From Chloroflexota bacterium (GTDB taxonomy: Bacteria; Chloroflexota; Anaerolineae; B4-G1; SLSP01), in NCBI GenBank assembly GCA_019873725.1, contig JAIOAS010000009.1:1-42522 (forward strand): a stretch of 42,522 nucleotides of DNA. Reading direction: 5' to 3'. The position numbers and the translations under genes are program-made. Every line of letters begins with the position of its first letter. Position 1 is the first letter of the stretch. The notes under the pieces are model-generated. The model made no database searches, was not told the DNA's origin, and saw only the letters and a list, made by a program, of their open reading frames with translations. This document shows, piece by piece, positions 1 through 24,089 of this stretch.

Positions 1-258
1 GATGGTCGTCACGACGCCGGCCACGCCTTCCAGCCGGCGCACCTGCCGGGCGAACGTGTCACCCAAGGGCCGGGCATAGTCGCGCGGCCAGGCGATAATG
101 CGTTGCAGCGGATCTTGCTCATACGCAACGATGGAACGGTTCAGTTGTTCGGCGATCCCGCCGACGGCCGTCACCGCGAAAATGCCCACCGTGACCGCCA
201 GAACGGTCAGGGCTGTGCGCACCTTACGCCGCCAGAAGTATTTTAGAATATCGAGCAT
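1..258 (-). CDS. MacB/FtsX-type ABC transporter permease, N-terminal part
   Basis: The start codon is at 258 and the frame stays open to the window edge, giving 86 residues of an N-terminus. It begins MLDILKYFWRRKVRTALTVL, a short basic cytoplasmic stretch followed by a first transmembrane helix (about residues 17-37). The next residues resemble the start of the extracytoplasmic MacB_PCD domain. This layout is typical of FtsX/MacB permeases, which work with an ATPase to move lipoproteins or peptides, or to transmit mechanical force, rather than to pump a small solute. Substrate and partner genes lie outside the window. It is transcribed divergently from the gene at 437. The family call is fairly sure; the specific role is unknown. 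Confidence 0.7.
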   Translation of the reverse strand, partial: MLDILKYFWRRKVRTALTVLAVTVGIFAVTAVGGIAEQLNRSIVAYEQDPLQRIIAWPRDYARPLGDTFARQVRRLEGVAGVVTTI

Positions 259-375
259 AGGTCTCCAGTAACGTGTAATGACTTTGGACTATCATCGCCA
301 CCGGTTGGCGTACACCAGGGTATACGCACAGGTCTTCAAAACGGTTGCATCTGCGCATAACAGCAGAATCCTTAC

Positions 376-403
376 TTGCGCTGTGACAGGGTCTGGATAG
401 AAT
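376..403 (+). promoter_or_regulatory. Putative promoter for the TPR-like gene at 437
   Basis: TTGCGC (376-381) and TAGAAT (398-403) are separated by 16 bp, the same spacer length as two stronger promoters in this window (before rpoB and rpsL). It lies in the divergent intergenic region, about 30 bp upstream of the start codon. Assigned by eye. Confidence 0.4.
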
Positions 404-436
404 AAACGCTATTCGATTGGTGCGAGGAGGATACCC

Positions 437-1507
437 ATGAGCTATCAAGAGGCCGCGTTATATGGAGATCTGGTGCTCTTTTTGCGTGACCGGGCAGCGG
501 AATTGCTGGCGCGGGATGGCGATATCGAAGCGCAACGCGCAAAACTCGACATCCTCATCCGTGATTGGTTTTTTACACCTCAAGCAGCATTACATGGCTG
601 CGCACCGCGTGACTTGATCTGGGCGGAACAGAAAGGCGAACCGAATCCCATTCCGACGGAACGTTTGGATGAGTTCTTTTTCGATGACTGTCCTCTCTGC
701 CAGGATATGCGCGAAGAGTTGGAGGCCGATTTGGCGACGGGTGCGGACCCCGGTTTTCATTGGTATTACGACGATGGTGGATATCCTCTGATTGCTCAGT
801 ATGATCCTGAAGGATGGGAGGCGCTCTGTGCGGCTGAGGAGGCTACTTGGGAAGCCGCTTCTGCGACTCACGCGCAACAAGATGCGCTGATTGAGCAAGT
901 CAATCAACGCCTGGATGAAGACGACTGGCAGGCCGCTTCCGAGGTCGCCTACGAAGCCTTGTGGCTTGCTCCCCACAACTTCCGCGCCGCTAATGCCTTG
1001 CTGCGTTGCTACCTGCACCGCGATGCGCTGCGCGAAATGGAGCGGGTGCAGTTTCGCATGTTCCATCCCGAAGATCCTGATTACGATACGCCGCATCAGC
1101 GCCGGCGACGCCTGACGTATACCTATCGCGCGCTGCGTCAAGCAGCGGTGTGGGACACCTGGCTTGAGGATGAGCGTTGGGGATCGCCGGCCTTGAATGA
1201 GGTCGCTGAAACCCTACATGCAGGTTTTTCTGCGCTCAATGCCTCCTATTGTGTGGGAGAGGACGGCGCTTACGAACGCGCCCGTGATTTGTTTGCCGCA
1301 GCCGAAAAGCATTGCGCGGAGCGCGCGGCGCTTTATTGGTACCTGGCGCGCCTTTATGCTGACTACGGTTTCTTTGCAGAGTCACTCGAGGCATTGGCAC
1401 AACTTAACGCCATCGAAGATCAGGCGATGAGGCCAGAAGTCCAACAGCTCTGGGCTGAAGTCACGTGGTGGCATGACTACGGGGAGCGACTTCCCTGGAT
1501 CCATTGA
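437..1507 (+). CDS. TPR-like protein of unknown function
   Basis: I do not recognise a named family for this 356-residue protein. It has no signal peptide or membrane helix and is rich in Trp, Tyr and acidic residues. The N-terminal half has a DCPLC motif (Cys85 and Cys88), a possible metal or redox pair. The C-terminal half (about 150-335) is all helical, with A/L/Y spacing like tetratricopeptide repeats, for example the stretches near residues 160-185 and 270-330. That suggests a protein-interaction scaffold. The start is supported by GAGGAGG seven bases upstream of the ATG. The stop is 18 bp before the truncated hydrolase gene at 1526, so the two were probably one operon before the island arrived. 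Confidence 0.7.
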   Translation: MSYQEAALYGDLVLFLRDRAAELLARDGDIEAQRAKLDILIRDWFFTPQAALHGCAPRDLIWAEQKGEPNPIPTERLDEFFFDDCPLCQDMREELEADLATGADPGFHWYYDDGGYPLIAQYDPEGWEALCAAEEATWEAASATHAQQDALIEQVNQRLDEDDWQAASEVAYEALWLAPHNFRAANALLRCYLHRDALREMERVQFRMFHPEDPDYDTPHQRRRRLTYTYRALRQAAVWDTWLEDERWGSPALNEVAETLHAGFSALNASYCVGEDGAYERARDLFAAAEKHCAERAALYWYLARLYADYGFFAESLEALAQLNAIEDQAMRPEVQQLWAEVTWWHDYGERLPWIH

Positions 1508-1525
1508 CGTTCAGGAGACTGTAAG

Positions 1526-1681
1526 ATGAAGGGTATTTCTCATTTCATCACCGGCGTCGCCATCGCCACCTTCTTCCCGGAAGTCGTGCGGGCGGGCGCT
1601 GCGGGCTCGCTGCTGCCGATGCTCGGCGGGGTTGGCGGCATCCTGCCCGATACGATTGACTTCAAATTTGCCTGGTATTGA
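1526..1681 (+). pseudogene. Truncated 5' end of a YdjM-like membrane hydrolase gene
   Basis: This stretch encodes 51 residues starting MKGISHFITGVAIATFFPEV and ending in the PDTIDF motif region, then meets a TGA at 1679. By my count it matches the first 51 codons of the intact gene at 12023 at 43 of 51 residues but only about 76% of nucleotides, most differences being silent. Similarity stops right after TATTG (1676-1680). About 76% of third codon positions are G or C, against about 51% in the matching part of the intact copy. It has its own ribosome-binding site (AGGAG at 1513-1517) and sits 18 bp after the gene at 437. I read it as the stranded 5' end of the original resident gene, cut off by insertion of the island. 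A degraded paralogue is the alternative. Confidence 0.75.
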
Positions 1682-1942
1682 CACCAGGCTGATTAGAAGT
1701 GATCTCAAAAGCCTATTTGTTTTGATGTGCAATTGTGAGATGTTGTCCATAAGCGTGACTCCTTGTTAGATTCTTGGTGATCGAAGCTAAAAAAGCGAGT
1801 GACCAGCAACGCGCAACCAGTATCCAGCATCTTGCTTCAAGCGACAAGTTTCCAGTTTGGCAAACCAGCGCATCGTAGGTGCGCATCTGTCATATCTGCC
1901 GGGCTTTTCAAAACAAACTAAACTTGATCCCCAAAATCGTTC
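1682..1942 (+). other. Non-coding left edge of the island
   Basis: Between the broken gene end and the tetR promoter I see no credible coding region; the short frames here lack ribosome-binding sites and family resemblance. There is no integrase, transposase or clear terminal inverted repeat. The stretch is AT-richer than the flanking resident genes. Confidence 0.4.
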
Positions 1943-1971
1943 TTGACTTTTTATGCGACATATTGTAGCAT
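1943..1971 (+). promoter_or_regulatory. Promoter of the tetR-led catabolic operon
   Basis: TTGACT (1943-1948) and TAGCAT (1966-1971) are 17 bp apart. Two palindromes cover the spacer, the -10 box and the likely transcription start, which is the arrangement expected for a repressible promoter. Confidence 0.5.
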
Positions 1972-1995
1972 GTATATGCGACAGTATGTCGCATA
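1952..1995 (+). promoter_or_regulatory. Double palindromic operator for the TetR repressor
   Basis: The right site (1975-1995) is a perfect inverted repeat: arm TATGCGACA, spacer GTA, arm TGTCGCATA. The left site (1952-1972) is imperfect: TATGCGACA, TAT, TGTAGCATG, with 7 of 9 arm positions matching. Site centres are 23 bp apart, about two helical turns, so two dimers could bind the same DNA face. The right site ends where the ribosome-binding site AGGAGG (1995-2000) of the TetR gene begins. This layout is typical of autoregulation by TetR-family proteins; binding itself is inferred. Confidence 0.75.
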
Positions 1996-2009
1996 GGAGG
2001 ATTACAGGC

Positions 2010-2645
2010 ATGATTTCTACTTATGAAAGGAACCGCATAAACGGCGTCCACCAGGTGGATGAACAGCGGAATGCTATCCTGAATGCGGCTGAAACCCTCT
2101 TCTTGCGGGAGGGACTGGAAAACACCACCATGGGCGATATTGCTAAGGAAACCGGCATTCATCGCGCCACAGTGTACCGCTATTTTCCGGACCGCGATCC
2201 GATCGCGTTCGAAATCGCTGCAAGAATGTTGAAAAAAATCTCTCTGACAGCGGGTTACCTGGAATCTTCGAGCGAACCCATCAGGTTAAGGGAATTCTTG
2301 CTGGCAATGATCGATCATTTTGATGAGCTTCGGGATGCCTATCGCTATCTGGGCATGTTCAATCATCTGTACGGAGATCATTATCCGAATGAAACCCTGG
2401 CGAACTGGTTTAAAGAACAGGCTTTTTCTGTCGTTCCGTCCAGGCGAGAATTGCAGCGTGCGGAATTGAAAGGGGAACGCGATCAGGTCATCGTTATCAT
2501 CAATACCATCATGAGTTTTCTGGAGAAAATGGCCGGCAGGGGAGACCTTATGGCGAGCGAGCAGGGTGTTCCGATTGCCGAGCAGTTGAAAATCTTTCGA
2601 GAGATGATCCAGTTGTACATCGACCGTGTTCAATTGCATGTTTGA
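2010..2645 (+). CDS. TetR/AcrR-family transcriptional repressor
   Basis: I chose the ATG at 2010 because AGGAGG lies nine bases upstream; an in-frame ATG at 1953 would place the start inside the left operator. The product is 211 residues. The N-terminal helix-turn-helix domain is clear: an AILNAAETLFLREG helix, then TTMGDIAKETGIHRATVYRYF, the classic TetR recognition segment. The variable C-terminal part (about 75-211) should bind a small ligand and dimerise. It is the first gene of the operon, with the serine hydrolase starting 43 bp after its stop, and the double operator just upstream suggests that it represses itself and the downstream genes. The inducer is not shown by sequence; a phenolic or glycoside substrate of the operon is an inference. 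Confidence 0.9.
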   Translation: MISTYERNRINGVHQVDEQRNAILNAAETLFLREGLENTTMGDIAKETGIHRATVYRYFPDRDPIAFEIAARMLKKISLTAGYLESSSEPIRLREFLLAMIDHFDELRDAYRYLGMFNHLYGDHYPNETLANWFKEQAFSVVPSRRELQRAELKGERDQVIVIINTIMSFLEKMAGRGDLMASEQGVPIAEQLKIFREMIQLYIDRVQLHV

Positions 2646-2688
2646 TGTTGTGTGGCGGCAATTTTGTTTCTACGGCCAGGATAACCAA

Positions 2689-3873
2689 ATGGACATTGAA
2701 AAAATCAACGCGCAGATGGAAGCGTATGTCCGCACCAGAGAAATGGTCGGCGGCGCGCTGATCATCCGCAGGGATGGCGAAATCTTGCTGAAGAACAGGT
2801 GGGGCAGCCTGGACGCCGAAGGGAAGCAGCCGGTGACAGAGGGCACCATCTTTCGAATGGCGTCGATGTCAAAGCCGGTCACGGCTGTGGCTGTCATGAG
2901 GCTGGTGGAGCAGGGCAAGCTTGGCCTTGACGATGAACTGACAAAATACATCCCCGCATTTCAGGGCTTGCGTGTGGTTGTGGACAAGCGATACGCGTAT
3001 TCCGAAGAAAATGTAAAGAAGGTTCTCTGGCGTTTTTTGACGTTTCGACTCAAAAACGTTGCGACCGTGCCGGCTGACAGAATGATCACCGTGCGGGATC
3101 TGCTGTCACATTCCAGTGGCCTGGAGCAGGGATTGGTGGGTTTGATCCTGATGATGAAAATGAAGTTCAAAGATGATACGTTGGAAACGCGTGTGCAGAA
3201 ATACGCGACGCATCCGCTCGACTTTCAGCCAGGAACAACTGCCAGTTATTCCCCGCTCGCCGGCTTTGACATTCTGGCGCGCCTCGTCGAAATTGTGAGC
3301 GGCAAGCCTTTTGCCGGGTACGTTAGCGACAACATTTTCACCCCGCTGGGTATGCAGGATGCTACCTATCATCCAACGCCAGCCCAACGCGCGCGCATCC
3401 CCAGACTGTACCAGTACGGCAAGCGGAAATTGAAAGACGTCACCGGCAGCAAGAAGGACCTCAATGCCATTGGGCATATCGGCCCCAAGTATACGTCTGG
3501 TTCCGCAGGGTTGTATGCGACGCTCGAAGATTACGACCGCTTCGTGCAGATGCTGGCCAATGAGGGCGAACTGGACGGCGCGCGCATTTTACAGCCGGAA
3601 ACGGTGCGGCAGATGCACACGGAAGGCGCATATAAGCATCTGGAATTTCAGCCCGGTTTGACCTGGGGCCTCGGTATGCTCATCCGGCAAGACCCCGAAA
3701 AAGCGCACAGCTCTGCCTGTCAGGGAACTTATGGTTGGAGCGGCCATTTCGGTACGCATTTCTTCATCAGCCCCGCAGACCATCTTTCGCTCGTGTTCGC
3801 CATGAATCGGGCCGATGCCGGTGGGGCCGATGCCTACATCTCGAAAAGACTGGAGGAGTTGGTATTTGAATAG
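2689..3873 (+). CDS. Serine hydrolase of the beta-lactamase/EstB class
   Basis: This 394-residue protein has the class C beta-lactamase/esterase fold: S59-M-S-K62 (nucleophile and general base), Tyr187 in YSPLAG, and a late WSGHFGTHF segment in place of the KTG box. Such proteins are usually esterases or peptidases rather than true lactamases. I took the ATG at 2689 (AGGA at 2678-2681) over an in-frame ATG at 2626 that would overlap tetR. No signal peptide is visible, unlike true class C lactamases, so it should act in the cytoplasm. Its place between tetR and the symporter suggests it hydrolyses an ester in the imported compound, but the substrate is unknown. Confidence 0.85.
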   Translation: MDIEKINAQMEAYVRTREMVGGALIIRRDGEILLKNRWGSLDAEGKQPVTEGTIFRMASMSKPVTAVAVMRLVEQGKLGLDDELTKYIPAFQGLRVVVDKRYAYSEENVKKVLWRFLTFRLKNVATVPADRMITVRDLLSHSSGLEQGLVGLILMMKMKFKDDTLETRVQKYATHPLDFQPGTTASYSPLAGFDILARLVEIVSGKPFAGYVSDNIFTPLGMQDATYHPTPAQRARIPRLYQYGKRKLKDVTGSKKDLNAIGHIGPKYTSGSAGLYATLEDYDRFVQMLANEGELDGARILQPETVRQMHTEGAYKHLEFQPGLTWGLGMLIRQDPEKAHSSACQGTYGWSGHFGTHFFISPADHLSLVFAMNRADAGGADAYISKRLEELVFE

Positions 3874-3961
3874 TTGAAACCGTCTCAATTTCTCTGCCTG
3901 TATACGATGGAAGGACTTGTATTCAGAATTGAACACCACGGAAGCATAAGGAGAATAGCAC

Positions 3962-5467
3962 ATGACGACAGAATTGATGATCGAAAAGCAGAAATCGGCC
4001 CGAAAAACTCGAGAAGGCTGGATCGTTCCGAAACGTGAGAAAGCCAGTTATTTTATCGGCTCGGGTTCGCATTTCACGATGCATACGTTTATGTCGGCAT
4101 TCCTGACAACCTACCTGCTGATGATCGGTGTCAATCCCGCCACCTCTGCGACCGTAATGTTTATCCTTAGGGCTTGGGATGCGATCAACGACACTTTGTT
4201 TGGTTACCTCATCGACCGGGTTCGCTTCAAGCCGGGGAAGGGCAGGCTTTCGCGCTGGTTTTTCAGCGGCAGATACCTGCCCTGGTTCCGGATCGCTTCC
4301 TTCGTTATTCCGTTCTCCACGATCATCACGTTCACGGTCAATACAAACGCGCCGATGTGGCTGCGGGTCCTGCAATATGCCATTGGGTACTTGCTTTACG
4401 ATACCGCTTACACGATGTCGTTCGCGCCGTGGGGGGCTATGCTCTCATCTTTGACCAGCAACGTTGACGAGCGCAACTTTATTCAGTCATACAGTGTCCT
4501 CGGACAGGCGCTCGGTCTGGTGCCGGTGCTCTTCCTCGGAACAGCGCTCATCGCGGGCAGCTTTGGCTACAGCGGTTCGGCCATCCTCTTTGCGATCTAC
4601 GGCTTTTTGCTCACAATTCCAGCCATGTTCGTCATCAAGGAGCGCGTTGTCAGCCCTCCCCCTCTAGCTTCTGAACAGAAATACTCCCTCAAAGAGATGT
4701 TCAGATTTCTGATGAAAACGAAAGAGTTCCTGTTCTTCGAGCTTGGACAGATCGTTTGGGGCGTGCTTGCTACCGGCGGCGCTTACGGGCTGTTTGTGGC
4801 CTATTATATCTTTGGCGATGCGAACCTCGCTTTGCTTTTTGGGCTATTCCAATTCGCGCCCACTATTCTCCTGCTCCCCTTCTTCCCGGCCATTTTTAAG
4901 CGCATTAACAAGATCACTGCCCTCCAGATCGCTTGTCTGTTGATCCTCGTCTGTGGCTTGTTGATGTATTTCATCGGAGCTGACGGCCTGATGGCGTCCA
5001 AAGGTTTATTCTATATTCTTCTTACCATCCATGGTACGGCTACTGTGTTTGTGGCAGTTGGTTCAGCCATGCTCCTCCCTGATATCGCGGAGCTGGCAAA
5101 ATATCGGACGGATACCGAACACGTCGGTATCATCTGGTCCATCCATTCTACTGTGACAAAGCTGATTAGCTCGCTCGTGGTTTCCGTGTCGCTCCTGATT
5201 CTCGGTGCTTATGGATGGGTCAGCGTCACCGCCGGTTCATTTGAAGAGCTGGCAGCGCTCAACGCGCAGGGTATTGGCTTACAGACGCCGCAGGCCCTGC
5301 AAGGGTTATGGAATGTGATGTATCTGTTCCCATCGATTGGTTTTGGGCTGGCCGCGTTCGTTTTCCTGCTGGTCAAGATCGACCGGAATCACATCAAAAC
5401 GATGATCCGGGCGAACACCGGTGAAATCACCCGTGAAGAAGCTGAAGCGATGTTGACTGGCGTTTAG
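3962..5467 (+). CDS. GPH-family sugar/glycoside:cation symporter
   Basis: The product is a 501-residue polytopic membrane protein with about 12 predicted helices. An early WDAINDTLFGYLIDR segment matches the D-x-x-x-D signature after helix 2 of glycoside-pentoside-hexuronide symporters, and a later FAPWGAM segment is also typical. Members such as MelB move sugars or glycosides with H+ or Na+. AAGGAG precedes the ATG. It lies 88 bp after the serine hydrolase and 27 bp before the rhamnosidase. As the only transporter in the cluster it is the likely entry route for the rhamnosidase substrate. The cytoplasmic C-terminus is about 25 residues long. Confidence 0.88.
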   Translation: MTTELMIEKQKSARKTREGWIVPKREKASYFIGSGSHFTMHTFMSAFLTTYLLMIGVNPATSATVMFILRAWDAINDTLFGYLIDRVRFKPGKGRLSRWFFSGRYLPWFRIASFVIPFSTIITFTVNTNAPMWLRVLQYAIGYLLYDTAYTMSFAPWGAMLSSLTSNVDERNFIQSYSVLGQALGLVPVLFLGTALIAGSFGYSGSAILFAIYGFLLTIPAMFVIKERVVSPPPLASEQKYSLKEMFRFLMKTKEFLFFELGQIVWGVLATGGAYGLFVAYYIFGDANLALLFGLFQFAPTILLLPFFPAIFKRINKITALQIACLLILVCGLLMYFIGADGLMASKGLFYILLTIHGTATVFVAVGSAMLLPDIAELAKYRTDTEHVGIIWSIHSTVTKLISSLVVSVSLLILGAYGWVSVTAGSFEELAALNAQGIGLQTPQALQGLWNVMYLFPSIGFGLAAFVFLLVKIDRNHIKTMIRANTGEITREEAEAMLTGV

Positions 5468-5494
5468 CACAGCCAACCACTGGGGGAGATGACG

Positions 5495-8317
5495 ATGCTG
5501 GAAGTCTATGAGTTACGGACAGAGTATCGCAAAGATCCGATAGGTATTGATGCTGAAAGGCCGCGGCTCTCCTGGAAGATCAGAAGTGCGGAAAGCAACG
5601 TGATGCAGACGGCCTATGCGATCACTGCATCCACCGATCCCAACGGCCAGAACGTGATCTGGAACAGCGGGAGAATTGCCAGCGATGCCTCTCAGCATGT
5701 TCTGTGGGATGGTCCGTCCCTTTCCTCCGGCGAGAGAGTGTACTGGAGAGTTACGGTGGAGGCCGGCCGAGCCACCGCAGTCAGCCCGGTGGCGTTCTTT
5801 GAAATGGGTCTGCTATCTCCTTCGGACTGGATAGCGGAATGGATTGAAGTGGAGGATGAGATCGACCCGGATGCATACAAACCAGCGCCATATCTTCGCA
5901 AGGAGTTCGATGTGCGGACCGGTCTGGTGAAGGCCCGGATCTACCAGAGCGCGCACGGCCTGTATGAGTTCTGGATCAACGGCGAGCGCGGCACGCAGGA
6001 TATCTTCAAGCCTGGATTCACCTCCTATTATGCCAGAACCCAGTACCAGGCCTACGATATCACATCGCTGCTTGTGCCGGGCAGAAACTGCTGGGCGGTT
6101 GCGCTCGGAGATGGCTGGTGGCGTGGCAAAACGGGCGGCATCACACGCAATAATTTCGGTTACAAGGTGGCCTTTATCGGGCAGATCGTACTCACCTATG
6201 CGGACGGCACAACAGAAGTGATCACATCCGACAAGCGCTTCAAAACTGCCACGGGCGGCTTGCTGAAAAGCGACATGAAGGAAGGCGACCTGTTTGACGC
6301 CAGATTAGAACCAGAGGGCTGGAAAATGGCCGGTTTCGACGACTCCGGCTGGAAATACGCGCATGCAGAAAGTGAAGGGCACGGCGACGTTCGTACATTG
6401 ATCGCCAGCCGCAGTGTGCCGGTACGCGAACACGAAACTTTTAACGCCACCGTGTTGAAAACACCCAATGGTGAGACCGTGTTGGATTTTGGACAAAATA
6501 TCGCCGGCTATGTGCGGATGAAGCTGCGCCGCGGTCGGCCCGGTCAGACCGTCACGCTGGTGCATGGCGAAGCGCTCGACGAAAACGGCAACTTCACGCA
6601 GAAAAACATCAAGGTCGACCAAAACACCAGGCTGCAGGAAGTTGAGTACATCATGAAGGGAGAGGAAGAGGAGCACTATACCCCGCTCTTCTCCATATTC
6701 GGGTTCCGGTATGTTCTACTCAAAGGTTATGAGGACAAAATTCAGCCGGGTGATTTTACGGCGGTGGCGGTGTATTCCGCGCTGGATGAAACCGGTGAGT
6801 TCACCTGCTCGCATCCGTTGATCAATCAACTGGTCAGCAACAGCCGGTGGAGCCAGAAAGGCAATTTCATGGATGTTCCTACCGACTGCCCGACGCGGGA
6901 ACGCTCTCCCTGGACCGGCGACAGCCAGGTCTATGTCCGGACCGCGACGTACTTTATGAATGTCTATCCGTTCTTTGAAAAATGGCTGCTCGATCTGAAC
7001 GTCGAGCAGTTTGCCAGCGGCAAGGTGGCTAATACGATCCCCTCAACAATCAGCATACACAATCCCGTTGAATGGCAGCGCCAGCGCGAAAAGATTGACG
7101 CCGTATCTGATCCGACGATCAAAATGGTCATGGAGATGGCGATGGGGGACCTGGAAAACGGCAGCCTGGCCGATGGATCTTCGGGCTGGGGCGATACGGC
7201 CACGATCACGCCCTACACCCTGTATCTCTGCTACGGAGATCCGCGCATCCTTGAAAATCAATACAGTTCGGCGAAAAAGTGGGTTGATTACATTGTCCGC
7301 GAGGCGGAGAAAGCCAACCCCACCTATGCGGACCTGGACTATTATCAAAATCCTGACGATGCTAAATATGTCTGGGATACCGGCTACCACTGGGGAGAAT
7401 GGTTGGAGCCAGACGTGACGCTCGCGGAAGGCCCGCAAGGCATCATGCACCTGTATCAGCATCCGCAGTATGCCGTGGCGACCATGTACTACTTCTATTC
7501 GGCCAGTCTGGTTTCCAAAATGGCAGCGATCCTCGGTAAGCCGGATGATGCGCAGAAATACAAAGAAATCGCGGCGAATGTAAAGCGCGTGTACAACACT
7601 TATTTCATTCGAGAGGATGGCACCATTACGGAAGGCCGCCAGGCGCCGAACGTGCGCGCGCTGGCATTTGACCTGGTTGATGAGACTAAAAAGCAAGCGG
7701 TTGCCGCCAAACTGGCGCAGATGGTGACGGAGAACGGCTACCGGCTGAATACCGGTTTCCTGGCAACCCCGTATCTGCTACACGTTCTTGCCGACAATGG
7801 GTATGCAGAGCTAGCGTTCAAAGTCCTGGAGCAGGAGCAAAGCCCGAGCTGGCTGTTCAATGTGAAAGCCGGCGCGACAACGATCCTGGAGGATTGGCAA
7901 GGGTTTGAAAAGTGCGTTGCTTCCTTCAACCATTATAGTTTTGGCGCGGTCTGCGATTTCCTGTTCGCGGGCATTGCCGGGATCCGCCCGGAGATCGAGC
8001 ATCCCGGATATAAGCATTTCCTGCTCAAACCTCTGGTTGGAGGAACACTGACCGAAGCCCATGCAAAGTACGAGAGCATCTATGGGCCGATCGAATCTTC
8101 GTGGAAGCGGAACAGAGACACAGTGGACTATACCTTTGTCGTACCCCCCAACACCACCGCCACTGTTATGCTGACCGCGGATCCGGCAGCGCTTGAACTG
8201 GTCAGGCGTACCTATCCTGATGCGGTGTATGAAAACGGTCGGATCTGTTTTTCCGTCGGAAGCGGCAGGTGGCAGGTGAAGGGGATTCGTATGCAAGCAG
8301 GGAGCGATGAAAGATGA
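5495..8317 (+). CDS. Alpha-L-rhamnosidase, glycoside hydrolase family 78
   Basis: This 940-residue enzyme should cleave terminal alpha-L-rhamnose from glycosides by an inverting mechanism. The N-terminus has the typical EYRKDPIGIDAERPRLSWKI segment of the first beta-sandwich domain, followed by the Bac_rhamnosid_N region and the (alpha/alpha)6 barrel. The acidic signature DCPTRERSPWTGD is intact, with Asp464, Glu469 and Asp476 spaced like Asp567, Glu572 and Asp579 of Bacillus RhaB. A second essential acid fits Glu799 in GATTILEDW, followed by SFNHYSFGAV. ATG codons at 5489 and 5495 are both possible; I prefer 5495 because of its distance from GGGGGAG at 5482-5488. There is no signal peptide. 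Its stop overlaps the next start (ATGA), implying translational coupling to the esterase. Confidence 0.93.
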   Translation: MLEVYELRTEYRKDPIGIDAERPRLSWKIRSAESNVMQTAYAITASTDPNGQNVIWNSGRIASDASQHVLWDGPSLSSGERVYWRVTVEAGRATAVSPVAFFEMGLLSPSDWIAEWIEVEDEIDPDAYKPAPYLRKEFDVRTGLVKARIYQSAHGLYEFWINGERGTQDIFKPGFTSYYARTQYQAYDITSLLVPGRNCWAVALGDGWWRGKTGGITRNNFGYKVAFIGQIVLTYADGTTEVITSDKRFKTATGGLLKSDMKEGDLFDARLEPEGWKMAGFDDSGWKYAHAESEGHGDVRTLIASRSVPVREHETFNATVLKTPNGETVLDFGQNIAGYVRMKLRRGRPGQTVTLVHGEALDENGNFTQKNIKVDQNTRLQEVEYIMKGEEEEHYTPLFSIFGFRYVLLKGYEDKIQPGDFTAVAVYSALDETGEFTCSHPLINQLVSNSRWSQKGNFMDVPTDCPTRERSPWTGDSQVYVRTATYFMNVYPFFEKWLLDLNVEQFASGKVANTIPSTISIHNPVEWQRQREKIDAVSDPTIKMVMEMAMGDLENGSLADGSSGWGDTATITPYTLYLCYGDPRILENQYSSAKKWVDYIVREAEKANPTYADLDYYQNPDDAKYVWDTGYHWGEWLEPDVTLAEGPQGIMHLYQHPQYAVATMYYFYSASLVSKMAAILGKPDDAQKYKEIAANVKRVYNTYFIREDGTITEGRQAPNVRALAFDLVDETKKQAVAAKLAQMVTENGYRLNTGFLATPYLLHVLADNGYAELAFKVLEQEQSPSWLFNVKAGATTILEDWQGFEKCVASFNHYSFGAVCDFLFAGIAGIRPEIEHPGYKHFLLKPLVGGTLTEAHAKYESIYGPIESSWKRNRDTVDYTFVVPPNTTATVMLTADPAALELVRRTYPDAVYENGRICFSVGSGRWQVKGIRMQAGSDER

Positions 8318-9324
8318 AGATCACCAAAGACACCAAACTGAGGGACATCCATAACGCTCCGGAGTTCTCGCAGGCGAGAGGCCATTTGATCTCCGGTAGT
8401 ACGGACATATTCAGCGGCGAGGGTGGCGAGCTTACGCTGGAAGATCTCCAACGAAAAACACCGACCTGGAATTACCGCGATATGATCTATGGCCTGGAGC
8501 GTCTGCAGGAGGTCTCCGGGAAAGGCGGTCAATATGTGTACCCCGTGTATACCGATGGGGAAATAAAAGACGACCCGCATTTAGGGCAGGTTCAGCTTTT
8601 TTACCTGCCTGCCGGCCAGAAGCGCCACGACTTCTACGCGATTCTGCTTGCCGGTGGTGCCTATGGCGCTGTGTGCACCATGGTGGAGTCGCTTCCCGTT
8701 GCCGCGAGGCTCAACGATCTGGGCGTCACGTGCTTTTGTCTGAACTATCGCACCGCAGTTCAGGAGAGTTTTATTTCCGGCCTGATGCCAAAGCCCCTGG
8801 ATGATCTTGCCGCTGCGTGGCGGTTCATTGCATCGCATCAAGATAGTTTTGGCGTCAATGTGGAAGATTACATAGTAGGTGGATTCTCCGCCGGTGGTCA
8901 TACCGCAGCCCTGTGGGGTACAGCGCACTTGGGCTATCGCAACTATGGCATTCCCGCTCCCAAGATGCTGCTGTTGGGTTACCCGCTGATCACGATGGAA
9001 AACCAGAAGCCGGGACAGGTTACGGACTATATCAACCTTGGCTTGTTTGGGACCGGCTATACCATCGAGGATATCCGCCGGTATGCCGTCAATCTGCACG
9101 TGGATGCGGCATATCCCAAAGTCTATTTGGCGCAGAGCATGGATGACGATACCGTCCCTCCCCAGGATTCCGAGGACTTGAGAATCGCTTTGGAAAGAGC
9201 CGGTGTTCCTTTCCGCATGGAGCGTCCCGCCTCCGGTGGGCACGGCTTTGGCCTCGGCTCTGCCACGCCGCTGGATGGCTGGGTGGAACGCGCTATGGCG
9301 TTTTTGAATGAACGAACGTTATGA
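8314..9324 (+). CDS. Alpha/beta-hydrolase esterase
   Basis: The 336-residue protein has an alpha/beta-hydrolase core. The nucleophile elbow GFSAGGH carries Ser192, the acid is probably Asp278 in the SMDDDTVPP turn, and His310 lies in GGHGFG. The LLAGGAYG segment near residue 110 fits the oxyanion-hole loop. Layout and motifs resemble the carbohydrate acetyl-/feruloyl-esterase group (BD-FAE type, COG0657). No signal peptide is seen. It starts inside the stop of the rhamnosidase gene and ends inside the start of the tannase-like gene (ATGA at both joints), so the three proteins are probably made in matched amounts. De-esterification of a rhamnoside is the likely role; whether it removes acetyl or aromatic acyl groups is not decided by sequence. 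Confidence 0.85.
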   Translation: MKITKDTKLRDIHNAPEFSQARGHLISGSTDIFSGEGGELTLEDLQRKTPTWNYRDMIYGLERLQEVSGKGGQYVYPVYTDGEIKDDPHLGQVQLFYLPAGQKRHDFYAILLAGGAYGAVCTMVESLPVAARLNDLGVTCFCLNYRTAVQESFISGLMPKPLDDLAAAWRFIASHQDSFGVNVEDYIVGGFSAGGHTAALWGTAHLGYRNYGIPAPKMLLLGYPLITMENQKPGQVTDYINLGLFGTGYTIEDIRRYAVNLHVDAAYPKVYLAQSMDDDTVPPQDSEDLRIALERAGVPFRMERPASGGHGFGLGSATPLDGWVERAMAFLNERTL

Positions 9325-10874
9325 AAGAAAAAGATAACATCCAGTTCTGGGATACTTCCGCGCTGGCAGAAACCGCCGCCATTCGCAGTCGCTGCGACGC
9401 TGCGTATATCGAAGCACAGCTAAAATTGCGATTTCCGGAAGAAACCATGCGCGTGATCTCGGTTAGCATCAACGAGACCGGGGTGTATAAGAGCACCTCG
9501 CATCTTCTTCTGAAGCTCCTGAGTGGTTTCTCGCCGATCAAGGGGCTTCCTCCCTACTGCGAAGTGCAACTGGACCACCAGACCGGCAAATTCACCGAGC
9601 GCGTCACGGTCTGGTCGCCCCTGGCGTGGAATGACCGCTTTGCCGGCACCGCAGGCGGCGGCATCAGTACAGGCGGTATGCAATACATCACCGCACCCAA
9701 CAATACGGTCAGAGGGTGGACGCTTCCCTTTGCGCTTATCAACGGCTTTACTGCCGCAACCGTTGATGCGGGTAACGTCACCGGCCGCCATGACCGGGCC
9801 GTTGACCCCGTTACACACGAACTGAACGATGACCTGATCGAAAACTGGCGGGCAAGAGCTACCCATTTTATGACCCTGTTCGGCAAAGCCGTAGCCGAGA
9901 TACTCCACCAGCGTCCCGTCCGGTATGCCTATATGAACGGCGGCTCCGGCGGCGGCAGACAGTCTATGGTGGAGGCTCAGGAATTTCCGCAGGATTATGA
10001 CGGCATTTGGGCCTCCTGCCCTGCCATTAACTGGTCGAAATTCGTGCTGGTGGGTTTCTGGCCTATAGCGGTGATGAACAGTTACGGTCATACTCTGACG
10101 CCCGATAAGATTGGCTATTTCCGCACCGCCGTTCATGACAGTGTCGGCGGAAGAGAGTCCTACTTTAAGCTGGCGCATAGGGTGGATTTTGACCCCGAAA
10201 CTTTGATCGGTCGAAAAACGAAAGATGGGCCAATCACCCAAATGGATGCCATCGTTATGAAGGAAATCTGGAACGGCCCGCGCCGCAAAAACGGTCAACG
10301 ACTGTGGTATGGCTTCCGACCCGGCGTTAAATTCTGGAATGTGGGTCTGCCGGTGGGCGCTTTCTATTACAGTCTCATCGGCAAGAAACCGAAGCCCTTC
10401 TTTCTCTGCAACAACTACGCCCGCTGGATTACCAGGGACCCCCAGCAAGATTTCAGCGGCATCACGATGGAAGAGTTTGAGGCGCTTTTTGACAAGAGCA
10501 CCACACTTTTTGCTCACGCTGCTGGAGACAAGGCGGACCTGCGGCCCTTTGCGCAGGCCGGCGGTAGGCTAATCATTGACCACGGCCTTGATGACCCGCT
10601 CATCCCCGTGGACGGCACCATTGATTACTATGATCGTATGTGTCGCCTCCATGGCGGCAAGGAAAGTGTGGACGAATTCTGCCGACTATACCTGACACCA
10701 GGCGACGGTCATGGCAATTGCTTTGGCAATGGCCCTGGCATCACTGAGTCCGATGGGATGCGCGTGTTAATTGATTGGGTGGAGAACGGACAGGCTCCTG
10801 GCGCAATGCGCGTTGTTCAGGTCAAAAGACTGGGCGGTAAAACCATGTGCGAGCGTGTACAACTGCCGCACTGA
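9321..10874 (+). CDS. Tannase/feruloyl-esterase family protein lacking the CS/HC cysteines
   Basis: This 517-residue protein matches the tannase/feruloyl esterase family (PF07519 type): a GGSGGGRQ nucleophile elbow with Ser209, a YDGIWASCPA segment just after it, Asp425 in HGLDDPLIP, and His464 in GDGHGNCFGNGPG. Known members hydrolyse galloyl or feruloyl esters and are mostly secreted. They carry a CS-D-HC motif in which a disulfide joins the residues next to Ser and His. Here both positions are Gly (G208 and G465), and the nearest Cys (467) is two residues off. No signal peptide is visible. Together this suggests a form adapted to the reducing cytoplasm. It is the last gene of the operon; I see no clear terminator before the convergent gene. 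Confidence 0.82.
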   Translation: MKEKDNIQFWDTSALAETAAIRSRCDAAYIEAQLKLRFPEETMRVISVSINETGVYKSTSHLLLKLLSGFSPIKGLPPYCEVQLDHQTGKFTERVTVWSPLAWNDRFAGTAGGGISTGGMQYITAPNNTVRGWTLPFALINGFTAATVDAGNVTGRHDRAVDPVTHELNDDLIENWRARATHFMTLFGKAVAEILHQRPVRYAYMNGGSGGGRQSMVEAQEFPQDYDGIWASCPAINWSKFVLVGFWPIAVMNSYGHTLTPDKIGYFRTAVHDSVGGRESYFKLAHRVDFDPETLIGRKTKDGPITQMDAIVMKEIWNGPRRKNGQRLWYGFRPGVKFWNVGLPVGAFYYSLIGKKPKPFFLCNNYARWITRDPQQDFSGITMEEFEALFDKSTTLFAHAAGDKADLRPFAQAGGRLIIDHGLDDPLIPVDGTIDYYDRMCRLHGGKESVDEFCRLYLTPGDGHGNCFGNGPGITESDGMRVLIDWVENGQAPGAMRVVQVKRLGGKTMCERVQLPH

Positions 10875-10935
10875 AGAGAGGCCGGCGCTAATGCACATCA
10901 TCCAGCACGAAAATGGCTGACTACAAGACTAACGA

Positions 10936-11748
10936 CTACGTGACTAAATTCGAAACGTTCATATATCTCAACGGCACGACCATGTCGAAATAGCGCAGCG
11001 AGTAAGGATCACCGTGAACCAACCGAGCCATTTTTCCCAGTCCGGGGAAGCTCCACTCTTCTTTGGTGTGGGGCAAATCATGGGTGATCCATTGAATCAT
11101 ATGCTCAAGATAGGCCTTGGGAAGAGCACAGCGGTCGTGGGCGGAATAGATCACATCAAAGTCTTGTGCCTGGAGACGGCGCAAAGATTCGCAGAACACA
11201 TGGAGGGGGACAAAGTCGGTCATGCCATAGAGCAGACGCCGGGCACAAGTATCGCCGGAGAGCAGGACTTTTGACTGGCGATCAAGAAGAAGTATGCTTC
11301 CCGGTGTGTGACCGGGTATGTTGAATACATCCAGCACACGATCGCCCAGATCAAGGGTGTCGCCATCCTGCAGAGAATGTATGGTGGGACAGGGGGTTAC
11401 AGGCGGCATCCCCATCATCCCATCTCGGATCAATTTTTCATCAGCAAGGTGCATCCACACATCGCTGAATTCGCTCAAAAAGTAAGTGTGATCGGGATGT
11501 CCGTGGCTGAGCACAAGCTGAACGGGCTTTCCGGCCAGCTCTTGGGTATATTCCCGCATACCGGCCTCGTTCACCGCCAAATCGAACAATAGCGCCCGCT
11601 CCTTGCCAACGACGAGATAAGCGTTGCCGGTGGGATTTCCGGGAGCAAGCGAGCTTCCTTCCGTTGTGGGGCTTGTGCATAGACTGGAAATCAGAAAAAT
11701 CCCACGCATGATTTCTACATGAAACAGGTTCTCCGATTTGTTCATCAT
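10936..11748 (-). CDS. Metallo-beta-lactamase-fold hydrolase
   Basis: The 270-residue protein has the MBL-fold metal site: H82-x-H84-x-D86-H87 in LSHGHPDH, His147 in the PGHTPGS loop, Asp166 in SGDTC and His204 in YSAHDR. This is a full two-metal set of the glyoxalase II-like/lactonase type. The reaction is unknown; lactone, thioester or cyclic-ester hydrolysis are family options. ATG codons at 11748 and 11745 are both possible; AAAGGAG lies about 13-16 bases upstream. It faces the tannase-like gene tail to tail and lies inside the island, so it may act on a lactone made downstream of sugar or aromatic release. No signal peptide is obvious. Confidence 0.85.
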   Translation of the reverse strand: MMNKSENLFHVEIMRGIFLISSLCTSPTTEGSSLAPGNPTGNAYLVVGKERALLFDLAVNEAGMREYTQELAGKPVQLVLSHGHPDHTYFLSEFSDVWMHLADEKLIRDGMMGMPPVTPCPTIHSLQDGDTLDLGDRVLDVFNIPGHTPGSILLLDRQSKVLLSGDTCARRLLYGMTDFVPLHVFCESLRRLQAQDFDVIYSAHDRCALPKAYLEHMIQWITHDLPHTKEEWSFPGLGKMARLVHGDPYSLRYFDMVVPLRYMNVSNLVT

Positions 11749-12022
11749 TATCAGAAGAATACTCCTTTGGTATATTCATGCTACATCTGGTTACCCAGAA
11801 TCATCGCCAATGCGCTTTGTTACCATAGAGTATGGCTTATAGTTGTCGAAAGGTCAAATTCGAGTGGGATGAAACTGATCAAGTAATCTGCATATGGGCT
11901 GAGGATTCCTTGGCATTGTCTGATTCGTGTTTCGGAATAAAATGTGAGTGCGCCGTAATAAGGAATTCTGATCGGTATCTACGAGCTAGTCCACATCTGC
12001 ATCGAAATAGTGGAGAGGAACT

Positions 12023-13054
12023 ATGAAAGGTATTTCTCATTTCATCACGGGCGTAGCGATTGCGACCTTCTTCCCCGAAGTTGTGCGGCAGGCTGAATTA
12101 GGAGGACTGCTGCCAATGTTAGGAGGGATCGGTGGCATCTTGCCTGATACGATAGACTTTAAGATTGCCAGATATTGGGAACGATTTGATCTCTCTATCG
12201 ATCCCGGCCTGGAACCCGATGCAGAAAAGATCGCCGATGCCCTCGTCGCGGCAATGCGGCGGGCTTACGAGACCGGCACGGATGTCAACCTCGTCGCTCA
12301 TACGATTCGTGTAGGGGCCGATCTCTGGCGCGAGTACGCCATCCGCTTCATCCCCGACAGCGACGAGATTGCCGTGCGCATCGGGCCGTTGGTCAACACC
12401 GGGCAGGTGCCGCTTGCCGGAAGTGAGCCGGAGGGGGCGGTGGAAGTCCGCCGCAAGGTCGGCGTGCCGGTGCGCAACACGTACAGCGAAGAGTACAAAG
12501 TCAACATCTTTTCCGGGCCGACGTTCCGCTTTGCGCGGGAGGGGGACCAGGTGCGGGTTCACTTCCTGGATTGGCATCACCGCTGGACGCACAGCTTGCT
12601 CCTCGCCGTGGCGGTCGGTGCGGTGATGGGGCTGCTGGTGGGGCTGCTCACCGGCAACTGGAACACGGCAGGGTGGGGTGGCCTGGTGACGGGGTTGGGT
12701 TTTGCCGGGCATATCCTTGAAGATCAGCTTGGACATATGGGCTCCAATCTCTTCTGGCCGCTCACGCGCAAGCGCATCCCCGGTCCGGGTCTGATTCACG
12801 CCAGTGATGCGATTCCCAACTTCCTCACGGTCTGGACAGCCGTGGCGTTGATTCTCTTCAACCTCGACCGGTTTTCGGGCGCGGCGCGCCTGCTGCCCTC
12901 GAGCTACCTGCTGGTCGCGGTGGGGCTGCCGTGGCTCATGCTGGGCGGAGTGTATGTGCTCGGCAAATCTCGCGGAGCGCATCCGCAGCCTTTGCGGGAG
13001 GGTGTCCGCCAGGAGGAGCGCATTGCGGAAGCCAACCCGGTCGAGATGGCCTGA
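12023..13054 (+). CDS. YdjM-like membrane-bound metal-dependent hydrolase, mosaic gene
   Basis: The 343-residue protein follows the YdjM/PF04307 pattern: His6 in KGISHFITG, Asp42 and Asp45 in ILPDTIDF, a HHRWTHSLLLA segment, and a HILEDQLGHMG segment before FWPLT, all near predicted membrane helices (about 190-220 and 260-310). These conserved His and Asp residues suggest a metal site at the membrane; the substrate is unknown. The first ~52 codons use A/T-ending codons about half the time, whereas later parts are GC-rich like the neighbours. A second, GC-rich copy of exactly that 5' part lies at 1526-1681. I infer that the 5' end was supplied by the incoming island and joined to the resident 3' part at a TATTG sequence. 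Confidence 0.8.
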   Translation: MKGISHFITGVAIATFFPEVVRQAELGGLLPMLGGIGGILPDTIDFKIARYWERFDLSIDPGLEPDAEKIADALVAAMRRAYETGTDVNLVAHTIRVGADLWREYAIRFIPDSDEIAVRIGPLVNTGQVPLAGSEPEGAVEVRRKVGVPVRNTYSEEYKVNIFSGPTFRFAREGDQVRVHFLDWHHRWTHSLLLAVAVGAVMGLLVGLLTGNWNTAGWGGLVTGLGFAGHILEDQLGHMGSNLFWPLTRKRIPGPGLIHASDAIPNFLTVWTAVALILFNLDRFSGAARLLPSSYLLVAVGLPWLMLGGVYVLGKSRGAHPQPLREGVRQEERIAEANPVEMA

Positions 13055-13068
13055 TGTCCACGGAACTG

Positions 13069-13077
13069 TGGTATAAT
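13069..13077 (+). promoter_or_regulatory. Extended -10 promoter close to a GTG start
   Basis: TGGTATAAT at 13069-13077 is an extended -10 element with no convincing -35 box. Transcription would start near 13084, so the mRNA of the gene starting at 13086 would have almost no leader. The same TGGTATAAT appears before rpoB and rpmJ. Confidence 0.6.
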
Positions 13078-13085
13078 TCCTGTTT

Positions 13086-14105
13086 GTGAGAAAGGTTTGC
13101 GCATCGTCTCTGCCCTGGAGCATCAGAGTAGCGTTGCTCCTGGTTCTCGTCTTGACGAACGCCTGTCAGGCTGTTGTAACGCCTCCGCCCACTGCGACGC
13201 TCCCGCCTACCACGACGTCTACTCCGCGGACGACTGCGGTGTTGTCACCGAGCGGCTTTCTTACGCCCATCCCACCCACGGCAACGTTGACGCTGACGCC
13301 TTCTCCTACTCCGGTGGTGCATATCGTGGTGCAAGGGGATACACTTTTCGGCATCGCTCTGGAATACGGCGTCAGCATGGATGCGCTGGTGCAGGCGAAC
13401 GGCCTGGATGTGAACCAATACCTGAGCATCGGGCAGACGCTGGTTATCCCGATGGACACGGAGGAGGGCGAGGAGCTGGGCATGGTCGCGCCGGTGGGAC
13501 ACATGATTTTGGCGACCCCGACGCCGTTGCCTTTGGACATCGTGGGGACGACGTTGTACCAGACACCGGTGGGGGGGGTGTGGTGTATGGGCGAGGTCGC
13601 CAATACCACCGCCGGCCCGATCACTAACATCCAGGTGCAGGTGACGCTGGTTACTGCCGGTGGCATACCGTTACAGGCGAGCACGGCGTTAGCGGCGGCC
13701 GATTACCTTGCGCCAGGCGCGCGCGCGCCCTTTGCCGTCTTGTTCAAAGCGCCGCCTGCCGGCTACGCGGATATGCAGGTGAGTCTGCTGCGCGGTGAAG
13801 CGGTGAGTGCCATCACCGCCGGCTTTGTCCCGCTGGATGTGGCGCAATCCGCCGGCGCAGTCTCCGGCCCTCAATATCGGGTCACAGGGGTGTTGCTCAA
13901 CAACAGTGGCGTTGCCGTAAGTCGCATCACCGTGGTGGTGACGCTCTACGACAAGGAGGGCAAAGTTCTTGGGTATCGGCAGACCGTTTTGGATGCCGAG
14001 ACGGTTTTGCCCGCCGGACAGAGCCGAGAATTCAGAGTCTTACTGACGCCGCAAGGCCTGCAGCCGCCTGCTTCTTTTCAAGTTCTGGCCTGGGGTGTGC
14101 GTTAG
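13086..14105 (+). CDS. LysM-domain lipoprotein
   Basis: The 339-residue protein starts at a GTG. A hydrophobic stretch (13-24) ends in the lipobox LTNAC with Cys27, so it should be lipidated and surface-exposed. A Thr/Pro-rich linker (about 32-77) follows, then one LysM domain (about 79-122, core VVQGDTLFGIALEYGVSMDA) that binds glycan chains. The rest (about 150-339) contains two beta-rich segments with similar N-terminal pattern, resembling the FxLYD-like domains of Chloroflexota envelope proteins; I cannot name them firmly. No good Shine-Dalgarno sequence precedes the GTG, which fits the near-leaderless transcript predicted from the -10 box. Likely role: cell-wall-associated structural or sensor protein. 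Confidence 0.8.
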   Translation: MRKVCASSLPWSIRVALLLVLVLTNACQAVVTPPPTATLPPTTTSTPRTTAVLSPSGFLTPIPPTATLTLTPSPTPVVHIVVQGDTLFGIALEYGVSMDALVQANGLDVNQYLSIGQTLVIPMDTEEGEELGMVAPVGHMILATPTPLPLDIVGTTLYQTPVGGVWCMGEVANTTAGPITNIQVQVTLVTAGGIPLQASTALAAADYLAPGARAPFAVLFKAPPAGYADMQVSLLRGEAVSAITAGFVPLDVAQSAGAVSGPQYRVTGVLLNNSGVAVSRITVVVTLYDKEGKVLGYRQTVLDAETVLPAGQSREFRVLLTPQGLQPPASFQVLAWGVR

Positions 14106-14154
14106 CGTCTGACTAACGACTACCAAATTATTTCCGAGGGGGAGGGATGTATTG

Positions 14155-14811
14155 ATGGAAGGCTATTGGAAAGTGCATCGGGTGATCGGCGCGCTCTACC
14201 GTCTGTTGACTCGTCTGGAAATCAGCGGAGCAGAGCATATCCCCGCAGAGGGCGGTTGCTTAATCGTTACCAACCACATCAGCCGGCTCGATACGCCGAC
14301 CTTGCTGATAGCTGTACCTCGGCGCATCTATCCGTTGGCCGCCGATAAGTACAAGCACTTTCCGGTCTTCAATTGGTTGCTCAACATCAGCGAAGCTGTC
14401 TGGATCAACCGCACCGAGTTCGACCGTGAGGCCCTGCTGAAATCGATTGAGGTGCTCAAGCGGGGCGACGTGCTCGGTATTGCGCCCGAAGGCACCCGCT
14501 CCCGGAGCGGGACTTTGCAAAAAGCCAAGCCCGGCGTTGCCTTTCTGGCTGCGCGTACCGGCGTTCCCATTGTTCCGGTGGGTATCACCGGGACCAATAC
14601 CATGCTGCAAGACTTTTTGCATTTGCGGCGGATGCACATTTGCGTCCGATTTGGCGAGGCGTTTTACTTGCCCAAGTATGGCAAGCTGACCGCGGAAGAG
14701 TTGGACGCCACGACCGATTTGATTATGAGCCGCCTGGCCGCGTTGTTACCACCTGCCTATCGCGGCGTGTACGCGACTACTACAGTCGCCACAGGGTTCG
14801 CCGTCACGTAA
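14155..14811 (+). CDS. plsC: PlsC-type 1-acyl-glycerol-3-phosphate acyltransferase
   Basis: This 218-residue protein carries the two acyltransferase motifs: NHISRLD (H41-x4-D46, catalytic) and PEGTRSRSG (E112-G-T-R, phosphate binding). It should transfer an acyl chain to lysophosphatidic acid at the inner face of the membrane, making phosphatidic acid for phospholipids. I use the ATG at 14155, eight bases after GGGGGAGGG; an in-frame TTG at 14152 is possible. It stands 49 bp after the LysM gene and just before the rpoB promoter, where rplL or rplJ would usually be found. Specificity among lysolipids cannot be told from sequence. Confidence 0.87.
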   Translation: MEGYWKVHRVIGALYRLLTRLEISGAEHIPAEGGCLIVTNHISRLDTPTLLIAVPRRIYPLAADKYKHFPVFNWLLNISEAVWINRTEFDREALLKSIEVLKRGDVLGIAPEGTRSRSGTLQKAKPGVAFLAARTGVPIVPVGITGTNTMLQDFLHLRRMHICVRFGEAFYLPKYGKLTAEELDATTDLIMSRLAALLPPAYRGVYATTTVATGFAVT

Positions 14812-14835
14812 AAGCATCGAGCATTGATTTGCGTT

Positions 14836-14863
14836 TTGACGGAAAACATAGTCATGGTATAAT
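14836..14863 (+). promoter_or_regulatory. Strong promoter of rpoB
   Basis: TTGACG (14836-14841), a 16-bp spacer ending in TGG, and a perfect TATAAT (14858-14863) form a near-consensus, extended -10 housekeeping promoter. The predicted leader to the rpoB start is about 150 nt and contains the triple hairpin at 14935-14988. Confidence 0.85.
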
Positions 14864-14897
14864 ACTCGTTCGCATGTCTCTATTGTCGAGTTATTTT

Positions 14898-14910
14898 TTG
14901 GTTCATCATT
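14898..14910 (+). promoter_or_regulatory. 13-nt leader element shared with tuf
   Basis: TTGGTTCATCATT lies in the rpoB leader and occurs again, identical, in the tuf leader at 22344-22356. Its function is unknown. Confidence 0.4.
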
Positions 14911-14934
14911 GCGTGAGCGATGAAGCGAACAGCA

Positions 14935-14988
14935 CCCACCGTCAGGTGGACACCCACCGTCAGGTGGGCGCACCCACCGGATGGTGGG
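14935..14988 (+). promoter_or_regulatory. Three consecutive hairpins in the rpoB leader
   Basis: CCCACC followed by a 4-nt loop and GGTGG occurs three times: 14935-14950 (loop GTCA, 5 bp), 14953-14968 (loop GTCA, 6 bp) and 14973-14988 (loop GGAT, 6 bp). Neighbouring arms can also pair with each other, for example GGTGGG of hairpin 2 with CCCACC of hairpin 3 across CGCA, so two exclusive folds exist. There is no U-tract. The last hairpin ends 16 nt before the AGGAGGGG ribosome-binding site of rpoB, so translational or stability control is possible. Confidence 0.65.
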
Positions 14989-15022
14989 CGTCACATTGGC
15001 ACCCAGGAGGGGAAGAAATAGC

Positions 15023-18922: not shown

Positions 18923-18948
18923 GCTGCGCGCTGCCGTCGGTGAATGGG

Positions 18949-18976
18949 TTGACGTTTTTTCCCTTTGTGGTACAAT
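18949..18976 (+). promoter_or_regulatory. Promoter of the str operon (rpsL)
   Basis: TTGACG (18949-18954) and TACAAT (18971-18976) are 16 bp apart, with TGG before the -10 box, closely matching the rpoB promoter. An inverted repeat, CTGCCGTC (18931-18938) and GACGGCAG (18988-18995), flanks it. The predicted leader is about 190 nt. Confidence 0.8.
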
Positions 18977-19023
18977 TTTTATTCGCTGACGGCAGCAAGA
19001 ACTCCTGCCATCGACAAGTGAAA

Positions 19024-19101
19024 GGGGCTGAAGGCTAAGGGCAAAGCCCCAGGTACTACGGCAACAACGAGGAGGCCATCGCAGCTAAAGATGGCCTTCT
19101 T
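19024..19101 (+). promoter_or_regulatory. Structured leader of rpsL
   Basis: Two helices can form. GGGGCT (19024-19029) pairs with AGCCCC (19045-19050). A longer 12-bp helix joins 19069-19080 (core GGCCATC) with 19090-19101 (core GATGGCC), with two G-U pairs and a 9-nt loop. The second is followed by a short pyrimidine run but not a strong U-tract. It does not match a riboswitch I know; ribosomal-protein autoregulation is possible. Confidence 0.45.
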
Positions 19102-19176
19102 CACTGGAATTATGAAGGTTTTTGACATCAGAGGCCGGTCTGATCCTGGCTGATGGGTTAAGTTGAGGAGGAGAAA

Positions 19177-19629: not shown

Positions 19630-19645
19630 GGAGACAAAGCAAACC

Positions 19646-20116: not shown

Positions 20117-20191
20117 GCGCCATCGAGTCTCCCCGCCGAGCGCAGCGGACCCGCATTGGCTGTCGCTGGTTGAACGACAAAGTGGTTGGCG

Positions 20192-22264: not shown

Positions 22265-22294
22265 GACCAGTTGTATAGCAGGGTTAACTGTAAG

Positions 22295-22356: not shown

Positions 22357-22403
22357 CGAGTATACATAAGATCAATTAGCAAAGAAATAAGGAGAGGCAA
22401 GCA

Positions 22404-23624: not shown

Positions 23625-23650
23625 TCCAATCCTGCACTACAAGGTGGTTT

Positions 23651-23959: not shown

Positions 23960-23983
23960 GCGTTGAGTTGCGCTGCTACAGCT

Positions 23984-24027: not shown

Positions 24028-24089
24028 TAGTGTGGCGGTAGCATGGGATGATGCGGCAACCTAGGGCTGGCAGTCCCAAGGAGGATAGG

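Follow-up and report, generated by a model that had tools for sequence, protein, structure and literature searches.

A mosaic YdjM-family gene and a displaced 5' stump in a Chloroflexota genome may record an island that carried a whole spare copy of its target

How did the 5' end of a conserved gene come to stand about 10.3 kb (1681–12022) from an intact gene that resembles it, with catabolic genes between them? The window analysed here, the whole stretch of 42,522 nucleotides, is the entire contig G000:C9 of a draft genome (G000; 5.27 Mb, 415 contigs, 3.56% contamination), and no tRNA genes were found in it. The target is a conserved membrane-protein gene of the YdjM family (PF04307, 65.8 bits compared with a Pfam gathering score of 29), and the gene at 12023 is an open frame of 343 codons with a foreign 5' part. 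The first-pass annotation had proposed that an island was inserted into a resident gene and supplied it with a replacement 5' end. Its measurements were reproduced: the stump and the start of the gene at 12023 are identical at 43 of 51 amino-acid positions and at 117 of 153 nucleotides (76%), and G or C stands at 39 of 51 third positions in the stump versus 26 of 51 in the corresponding part of the intact copy. A search of the genome itself gave only two strong matches to the gene (E 5.7e-22 and 9.3e-234), the third being weak (E 0.003). The reading preferred here, with a probability of about 0.6, is that a site-specific island with a whole spare gene copy entered the YdjM-family gene and that recombination between the spare and what was left of the resident 3' part later gave one mosaic gene. 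The features of the locus are collected in Table 1.

Table 1. Features of the locus in window coordinates, with the matches on which each assignment is based.
Feature	Position	Strand	Evidence
Left resident flank	17–412	.	Start of a minus-strand permease gene and promoter-like region; 81% to G003:C85 1–397
Resident 5' stump of YdjM-family gene	1526–1681	+	51 codons then TGA; 90% to G003 gene start; clade with G003 97/92
Presumed left attachment core (TTTGCCTGGTATTG)	1667–1680	+	Last bases common with resident gene; G001 and G035 truncated copies start at gene nucleotides 144–152
Left island end, non-coding	1681–1952	.	First 16 bases 11/16 like the letters past the same break in G036:C217
TetR-family regulator	1953–2645	+	PF00440, E 6e-13
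Serine beta-lactamase-fold protein, esterase-like by inference	2626–3873	+	PF00144, E 6.7e-68
Sugar transporter, MFS_2	3962–5467	+	PF13347, E 7.3e-42
Alpha-L-rhamnosidase (GH78)	5489–8317	+	PF17389, E 3.4e-94, plus four more rhamnosidase domains
Alpha/beta hydrolase	8314–9324	+	PF20434, E 2e-13
Tannase / feruloyl esterase family protein	9321–10874	+	PF07519, E 5e-50
Metallo-beta-lactamase-fold protein	10936–11748	-	PF00753, E 4.3e-16
Block upstream of spare copy	11906–12022	+	About 88% to G001:C175 3922–4037; promoter-like site 11916–11943
Foreign-type (spare copy) part of mosaic gene	12023–12313	+	90–96% to G001 copy A; clade 100/100
Crossover interval, spare copy/resident gene	12314–12348	+	Best single breakpoint; 0/5000 shuffles reach the gain
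Resident part of mosaic gene	12349–13054	+	Groups with G001 copy B and G003 at 89/93; 81/115 informative sites resident-type
Right resident flank	13086–26920	.	Syntenic with G001 behind truncated copy B, 86.5% (match from 12173); with G003 to 18633

Four relatives bear on the history of the locus, of which G001 and G003 belong to the same genus as G000, G035 to another family of the order and G036 to another family. An empty, uninterrupted site is present in the sister genome G003, where window 1513–1680 corresponds to C85 398–565 (90%) and window 12023–18633 to 411–7096 (85%). Because the gene there is unbroken, the island is absent from G003, and the proposal of an insertion into a resident gene gains the empty site that it called for in relatives. 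The resident-derived bases of the stump run from 1526 to 1680, and the cut falls after TATTG, at gene nucleotide 155. Centred on the left junction is a perfect inverted repeat, with arms of 7 bp and a spacer of 6 bp (GCCTGGT-ATTGAC-ACCAGGC, 1670–1689); it resembles a recombinase core site and is absent from G036.

Two other genomes hold the gene in duplicate. In G001:C175, a complete copy A (4038–5072, including the stop codon) is followed 129 bp on by a 5'-truncated copy B, in which resident-like sequence begins at 5202 and leads into 14.9 kb of synteny with the window at 86.5%. Similarly, a complete copy in G035 (229–1257) is followed by a 5'-truncated, decayed copy, which retains the downstream gene seen behind the YdjM-family gene in several relatives; the two G035 copies belong to different clades in the tree. 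The homology of the truncated copies begins at gene nucleotide 144 or 149 in G001 copy B, depending on the reference used, and at 152 in G035, and the target position is fixed across G000, G001 and G035, with all breaks in gene nucleotides 144–155. The right end is preserved in G001, with GGTATTG, and in the window only the left end is. No left-hand stump was found in G001 or G035, and the left flank is missing from the G001 assembly, so that stump, island and truncated copy have never been seen together; no similarity was detected between the G001 and G035 spacers. Matches to the target gene occur in 34 of 48 genomes of the order and in 75 of 396 genomes of the class, and among the latter a complete copy adjoining a copy cut at this site was found only in G000, G001 and G035. 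Six further genomes gave two match rows each (G030, G036, G087, G129, G171 and G180), and none has a full copy beside a site-cut copy; their rows are alignments that were split, pieces from contig ends, a distant partial stump and weak matches. No examined relative carries two full copies at both places.

These arrangements bear on two ways of doing without an island. One is that a related copy was gained or duplicated beside the resident one, truncation and fusion followed by chance deletions, and the cargo came in a separate event. Tandem copies are common substrates for deletion, and the joint arrival of cargo and gene copy is not proven; however, the copies lie in different clades and are not recent duplicates, and the break positions coincide, which makes ordinary duplication highly improbable. 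The other is an artefact of a draft metagenome assembly, a concern raised by the contig count and contamination given above. It is hardly credible, since both flanks are syntenic with a single sister locus in G003, the break pattern in two genomes would need repeated errors at one place, and the stump/gene pair (66 bases, 88%) is the only repeat longer than 31 bases in 1400–12700 among the largest 20 of 33 direct-repeat families.

The point at which foreign sequence gives way to resident sequence was mapped at 171 informative sites, defined as those where G001 copy A differs from the agreeing resident copies. Up to 12313, there are 47 foreign, 6 resident and 3 other sites; from 12349 onwards, there are 22 foreign, 81 resident and 12 other sites. 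Over 12023–12342 the window gene is 90–96% identical to G001 copy A compared with 71–76% to G003, and past 12342 it is mostly closer to G001 copy B and G003. G or C occupies 36 of 56 third positions in codons 52–107 and 192 of 236 in codons 108–343, in agreement with foreign-type sequence to 12313 and resident type by 12349. The phylogenies also differ between the two ends of the gene, as had been predicted. For codons 1–98, the tree unites the window gene and copy A at 100/100, and the stump and G003 at 97/92; the AU test rejects (p 0.0015) a tree that puts the window gene with the stump and G003. For codons 52–98 alone, the window gene groups with copy A at 100/99, and grouping with copy B and G003 is rejected (AU p 0.033). 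Over codons 110–343 its group is formed by copy B and G003, though support is incomplete (89/93). The test does not reject a placement with copy A for these codons (AU p 0.075), a result that counts against the preferred reading.

It had further been claimed that TATTG marks the break or join in both the stump and the intact gene. This holds for the end of the stump, but the right-hand gene is unchanged at that place and is foreign-type to 12313, with 22 of the 23 informative sites in 12179–12313 of the foreign kind. In the same way, the 5' end of the intact gene is foreign as proposed, but it is not a piece of 51 codons joined at TATTG, a breakpoint at 12178 being 22.9 lnL units worse than one at 12314–12348. 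The foreign part of the mosaic gene spans about 97–109 codons, and the TATTG at 12175–12179 is the spare copy's own uninterrupted site. This site differs by one silent base from that of G003 (AGATATTG vs AGGTATTG), a difference that might protect it from re-entry. An element whose sole contribution to the gene was a new 5' end, attached at TATTG, with 12179–12313 converted to the foreign type later, would have the form known from dusA islands (PMC4482086), and G001 copies A and B do seem to have exchanged sequence. Nevertheless, the run of foreign-type sites past TATTG and the whole foreign copy kept in G001 and G035 render it rather improbable. Copies A and B in G001 are unusually alike (86–91%) over the stretch matching window 12343–12582, suggesting that the two tandem copies exchanged sequence.

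The sequence upstream of the spare copy is also common to two genomes. The block is present in G000 (from 11906) and in G001 (from 3922), the DNA beyond it differs and gives no match, and a promoter scan found four sites compared with 1.1 expected. The spare parts of G000 and G001 are 90–96% alike versus 86.5% for the flank, which suggests separate acquisition, although slow evolution of this stretch could give the same picture. A proven place in the element was considered for the gene block that precedes copy A in G001, and was rejected: homologues lie away from the gene at G000:C4 and G003:C659, so the block need not belong to the element. It recurs in three genomes of the genus (G000:C4 6511–12148, L145; G001:C175 2–3509, L033; G003:C659, L146), beside a DnaB-like helicase gene in G000 and directly upstream of the spare copy in G001.

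According to the preferred reading, an integrative island would have inserted itself at a fixed position of the resident YdjM-family gene, at about gene nucleotides 144–155 (codons 49–52), leaving the 51-codon 5' stump at its left, while a complete second copy with its own promoter block would have stood near its right end. Since the island would have carried this complete, promoter-equipped copy, the function could survive the insertion. The left end, cargo and spare copy would have travelled together in one island, with a site-specific recombinase as the probable agent. The spare and the 5'-truncated resident gene would then have lain in tandem about 130 bp apart, as they still do in G001, whose tandem is likely an earlier state of the window locus. 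Recombination between the tandem copies in a high-identity stretch would come afterwards and would delete the 3' part of the spare, the spacer and the right attachment site; the product would be a single mosaic gene, and loss of the right site would have fixed the island, making the insertion probably permanent. The mosaic protein presumably works, so that the target function would have been restored by island sequence. A whole spare with a later homologous crossover is the simplest reading because in both G001 and G035 the resident gene that lacks its 5' part stands next to a foreign copy that is complete; the integration step itself is one that we infer, given that no integrase was found and that G001 and G035 lack a left-hand stump.

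Site-specific integration could also be dispensed with if foreign linear DNA, consisting of cargo and a homologous gene, had entered by homology-facilitated illegitimate recombination, with 12314–12348 as the homologous anchor and a microhomology join near TATTG, for which no integrase is needed. In favour of this route, the crossover at the right-hand join is homologous, the stump has a short motif at its end, and the island yielded no integrase; however, the route predicts neither that the truncated copies of G001 and G035 should start at one position to within a few bases nor that G036 should have a stump ending as in the window, and it is judged unlikely.

The G036 sequence deserves separate comment. 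Near a contig end, G036:C217 has a partial stump that breaks at the same base as the window stump and is followed by similar letters; 5 of 20,000 shuffles reach the likeness of 11 in 16 bases, and the gapped local score is unremarkable (6231/20,000). A 21-base left-end pattern was found in 2 of 396 genomes, both being those used to build it. As a clean independent insertion this candidate was rejected, the partial stump being 90% like that of the window even though G036 belongs to another family. Misbinning of the contig is possible, since its stump is closer to the family of the window than to that of G036, and it was counted as weak support only.

Searches for the recombinase covered the cargo, six genomes and mobile elements. 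Integrase domains gave 36 matches, distributed over all six genomes searched, and none of the 36 could be tied to the site. A composite attachment-site pattern was sought near 30 of the 36 integrases and dismissed: the best match (17 of 22 bases, L171) is without the GGTATTG core, and matches of that quality are also met elsewhere. Tandem pairs of integrase-family genes lie near contig ends at G000:C19 775–2602 and G003:C124 968–2748, and are perhaps a mobile element that the two genomes share. No match was found for relatives of the first 62 codons of the target gene in viral contigs, nor for the whole target protein in plasmids and in phages; scans of viral contigs for the left-end pattern and for the promoter block gave 0 matches each, and one G001 island protein had no viral relatives.

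Each of the seven cargo proteins tested falls in a Pfam family of catabolism, transport or regulation, which bears out the description of the intervening 10.3 kb as catabolic genes, and the island cargo is predicted to degrade sugars and tannins. The remark that no integrase is visible holds as well: none of the seven belongs to a recombinase family proper, and two helix-turn-helix models that bear the names of resolvase and transposase are also touched by the TetR protein. Among 60 genomes searched, no close relatives of the tannase were found, and outside G000 there were only two matches, both at 34%. A 20-base inverted repeat (1952–1995, 90% complementary) overlaps the TetR gene start and is likely an operator.

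Islands that repair the gene they enter are already known. SXT-type elements in prfC supply a replacement 5' end and a promoter to a protein gene, as the window island would; unlike it, they are large and conjugative and carry an integrase, and we know of no whole spare copy in them. The window island is a variant of the dusA-type gene-restoring islands. As described in PMC4482086, dusA-specific genomic islands and prophages insert at a conserved position close to the start of a conserved protein gene, island sequence becomes the gene's new 5' end and the original 5' end is displaced, and each of these traits recurs in the window. The differences from that description are that the window target is PF04307 YdjM and not dusA, that the host group is another, that no dusA-type integrase is present in the island, and that the island appears to carry a whole gene copy, the present joint being a homologous crossover past the site. 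As with the tRNA-gene islands of Islander (PMC4383910), a split target is restored by island sequence and a displaced fragment marks the other end; unlike them, the target is a protein gene, fragment and restored gene are homologues 76% alike and not near-identical, and there is no integrase. Among the papers listed by the literature searches there was no report of this YdjM-family gene as an island target, or of such islands in this Chloroflexota group, which is no proof of absence in print.

To the extent that these accounts describe gene-patching islands, they supply just the missing end, and the new element here is a whole spare that would later fuse with the remnant. Such fusion offers a specific mechanism, open to test, through which a mobile island would lose its exit and be fixed. 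Its scar, a mosaic gene with a displaced 5' stump, could reveal old islands without an integrase. If the boundary between foreign and resident sequence is not mapped against relatives, a joint that looks site-specific can be put in the wrong place. It is possible, and is put forward tentatively, that the Thermoflexales-group Chloroflexota host a family of islands with one fixed YdjM-type gene site, in which a whole promoter-equipped spare preserves function and, lying in tandem with the cut resident gene, recombines with it; the loss of the right attachment site in this step would provide an inherent path from mobile to permanent cargo.

Two further observations concern the surroundings of the site. 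Between the resident promoter region and the stump, the window has a 1.1-kb stretch (413–1512) with an ORF at 437–1507 (356 aa, no Pfam match), which G003 lacks exactly between the same flanks; it may be an insertion in the window or a deletion in G003. In addition, several contigs terminate within the target gene: G030:C231 ends (L037 9214) at codon 50 and G023:C91 starts (L040 1–139) at codon 46, while a G042 contig ends at codon 62 and a second G030 contig at codon 228. The ends near the break site in G030 and G023 are suggestive of assembly branching in mixed populations with and without the insert.
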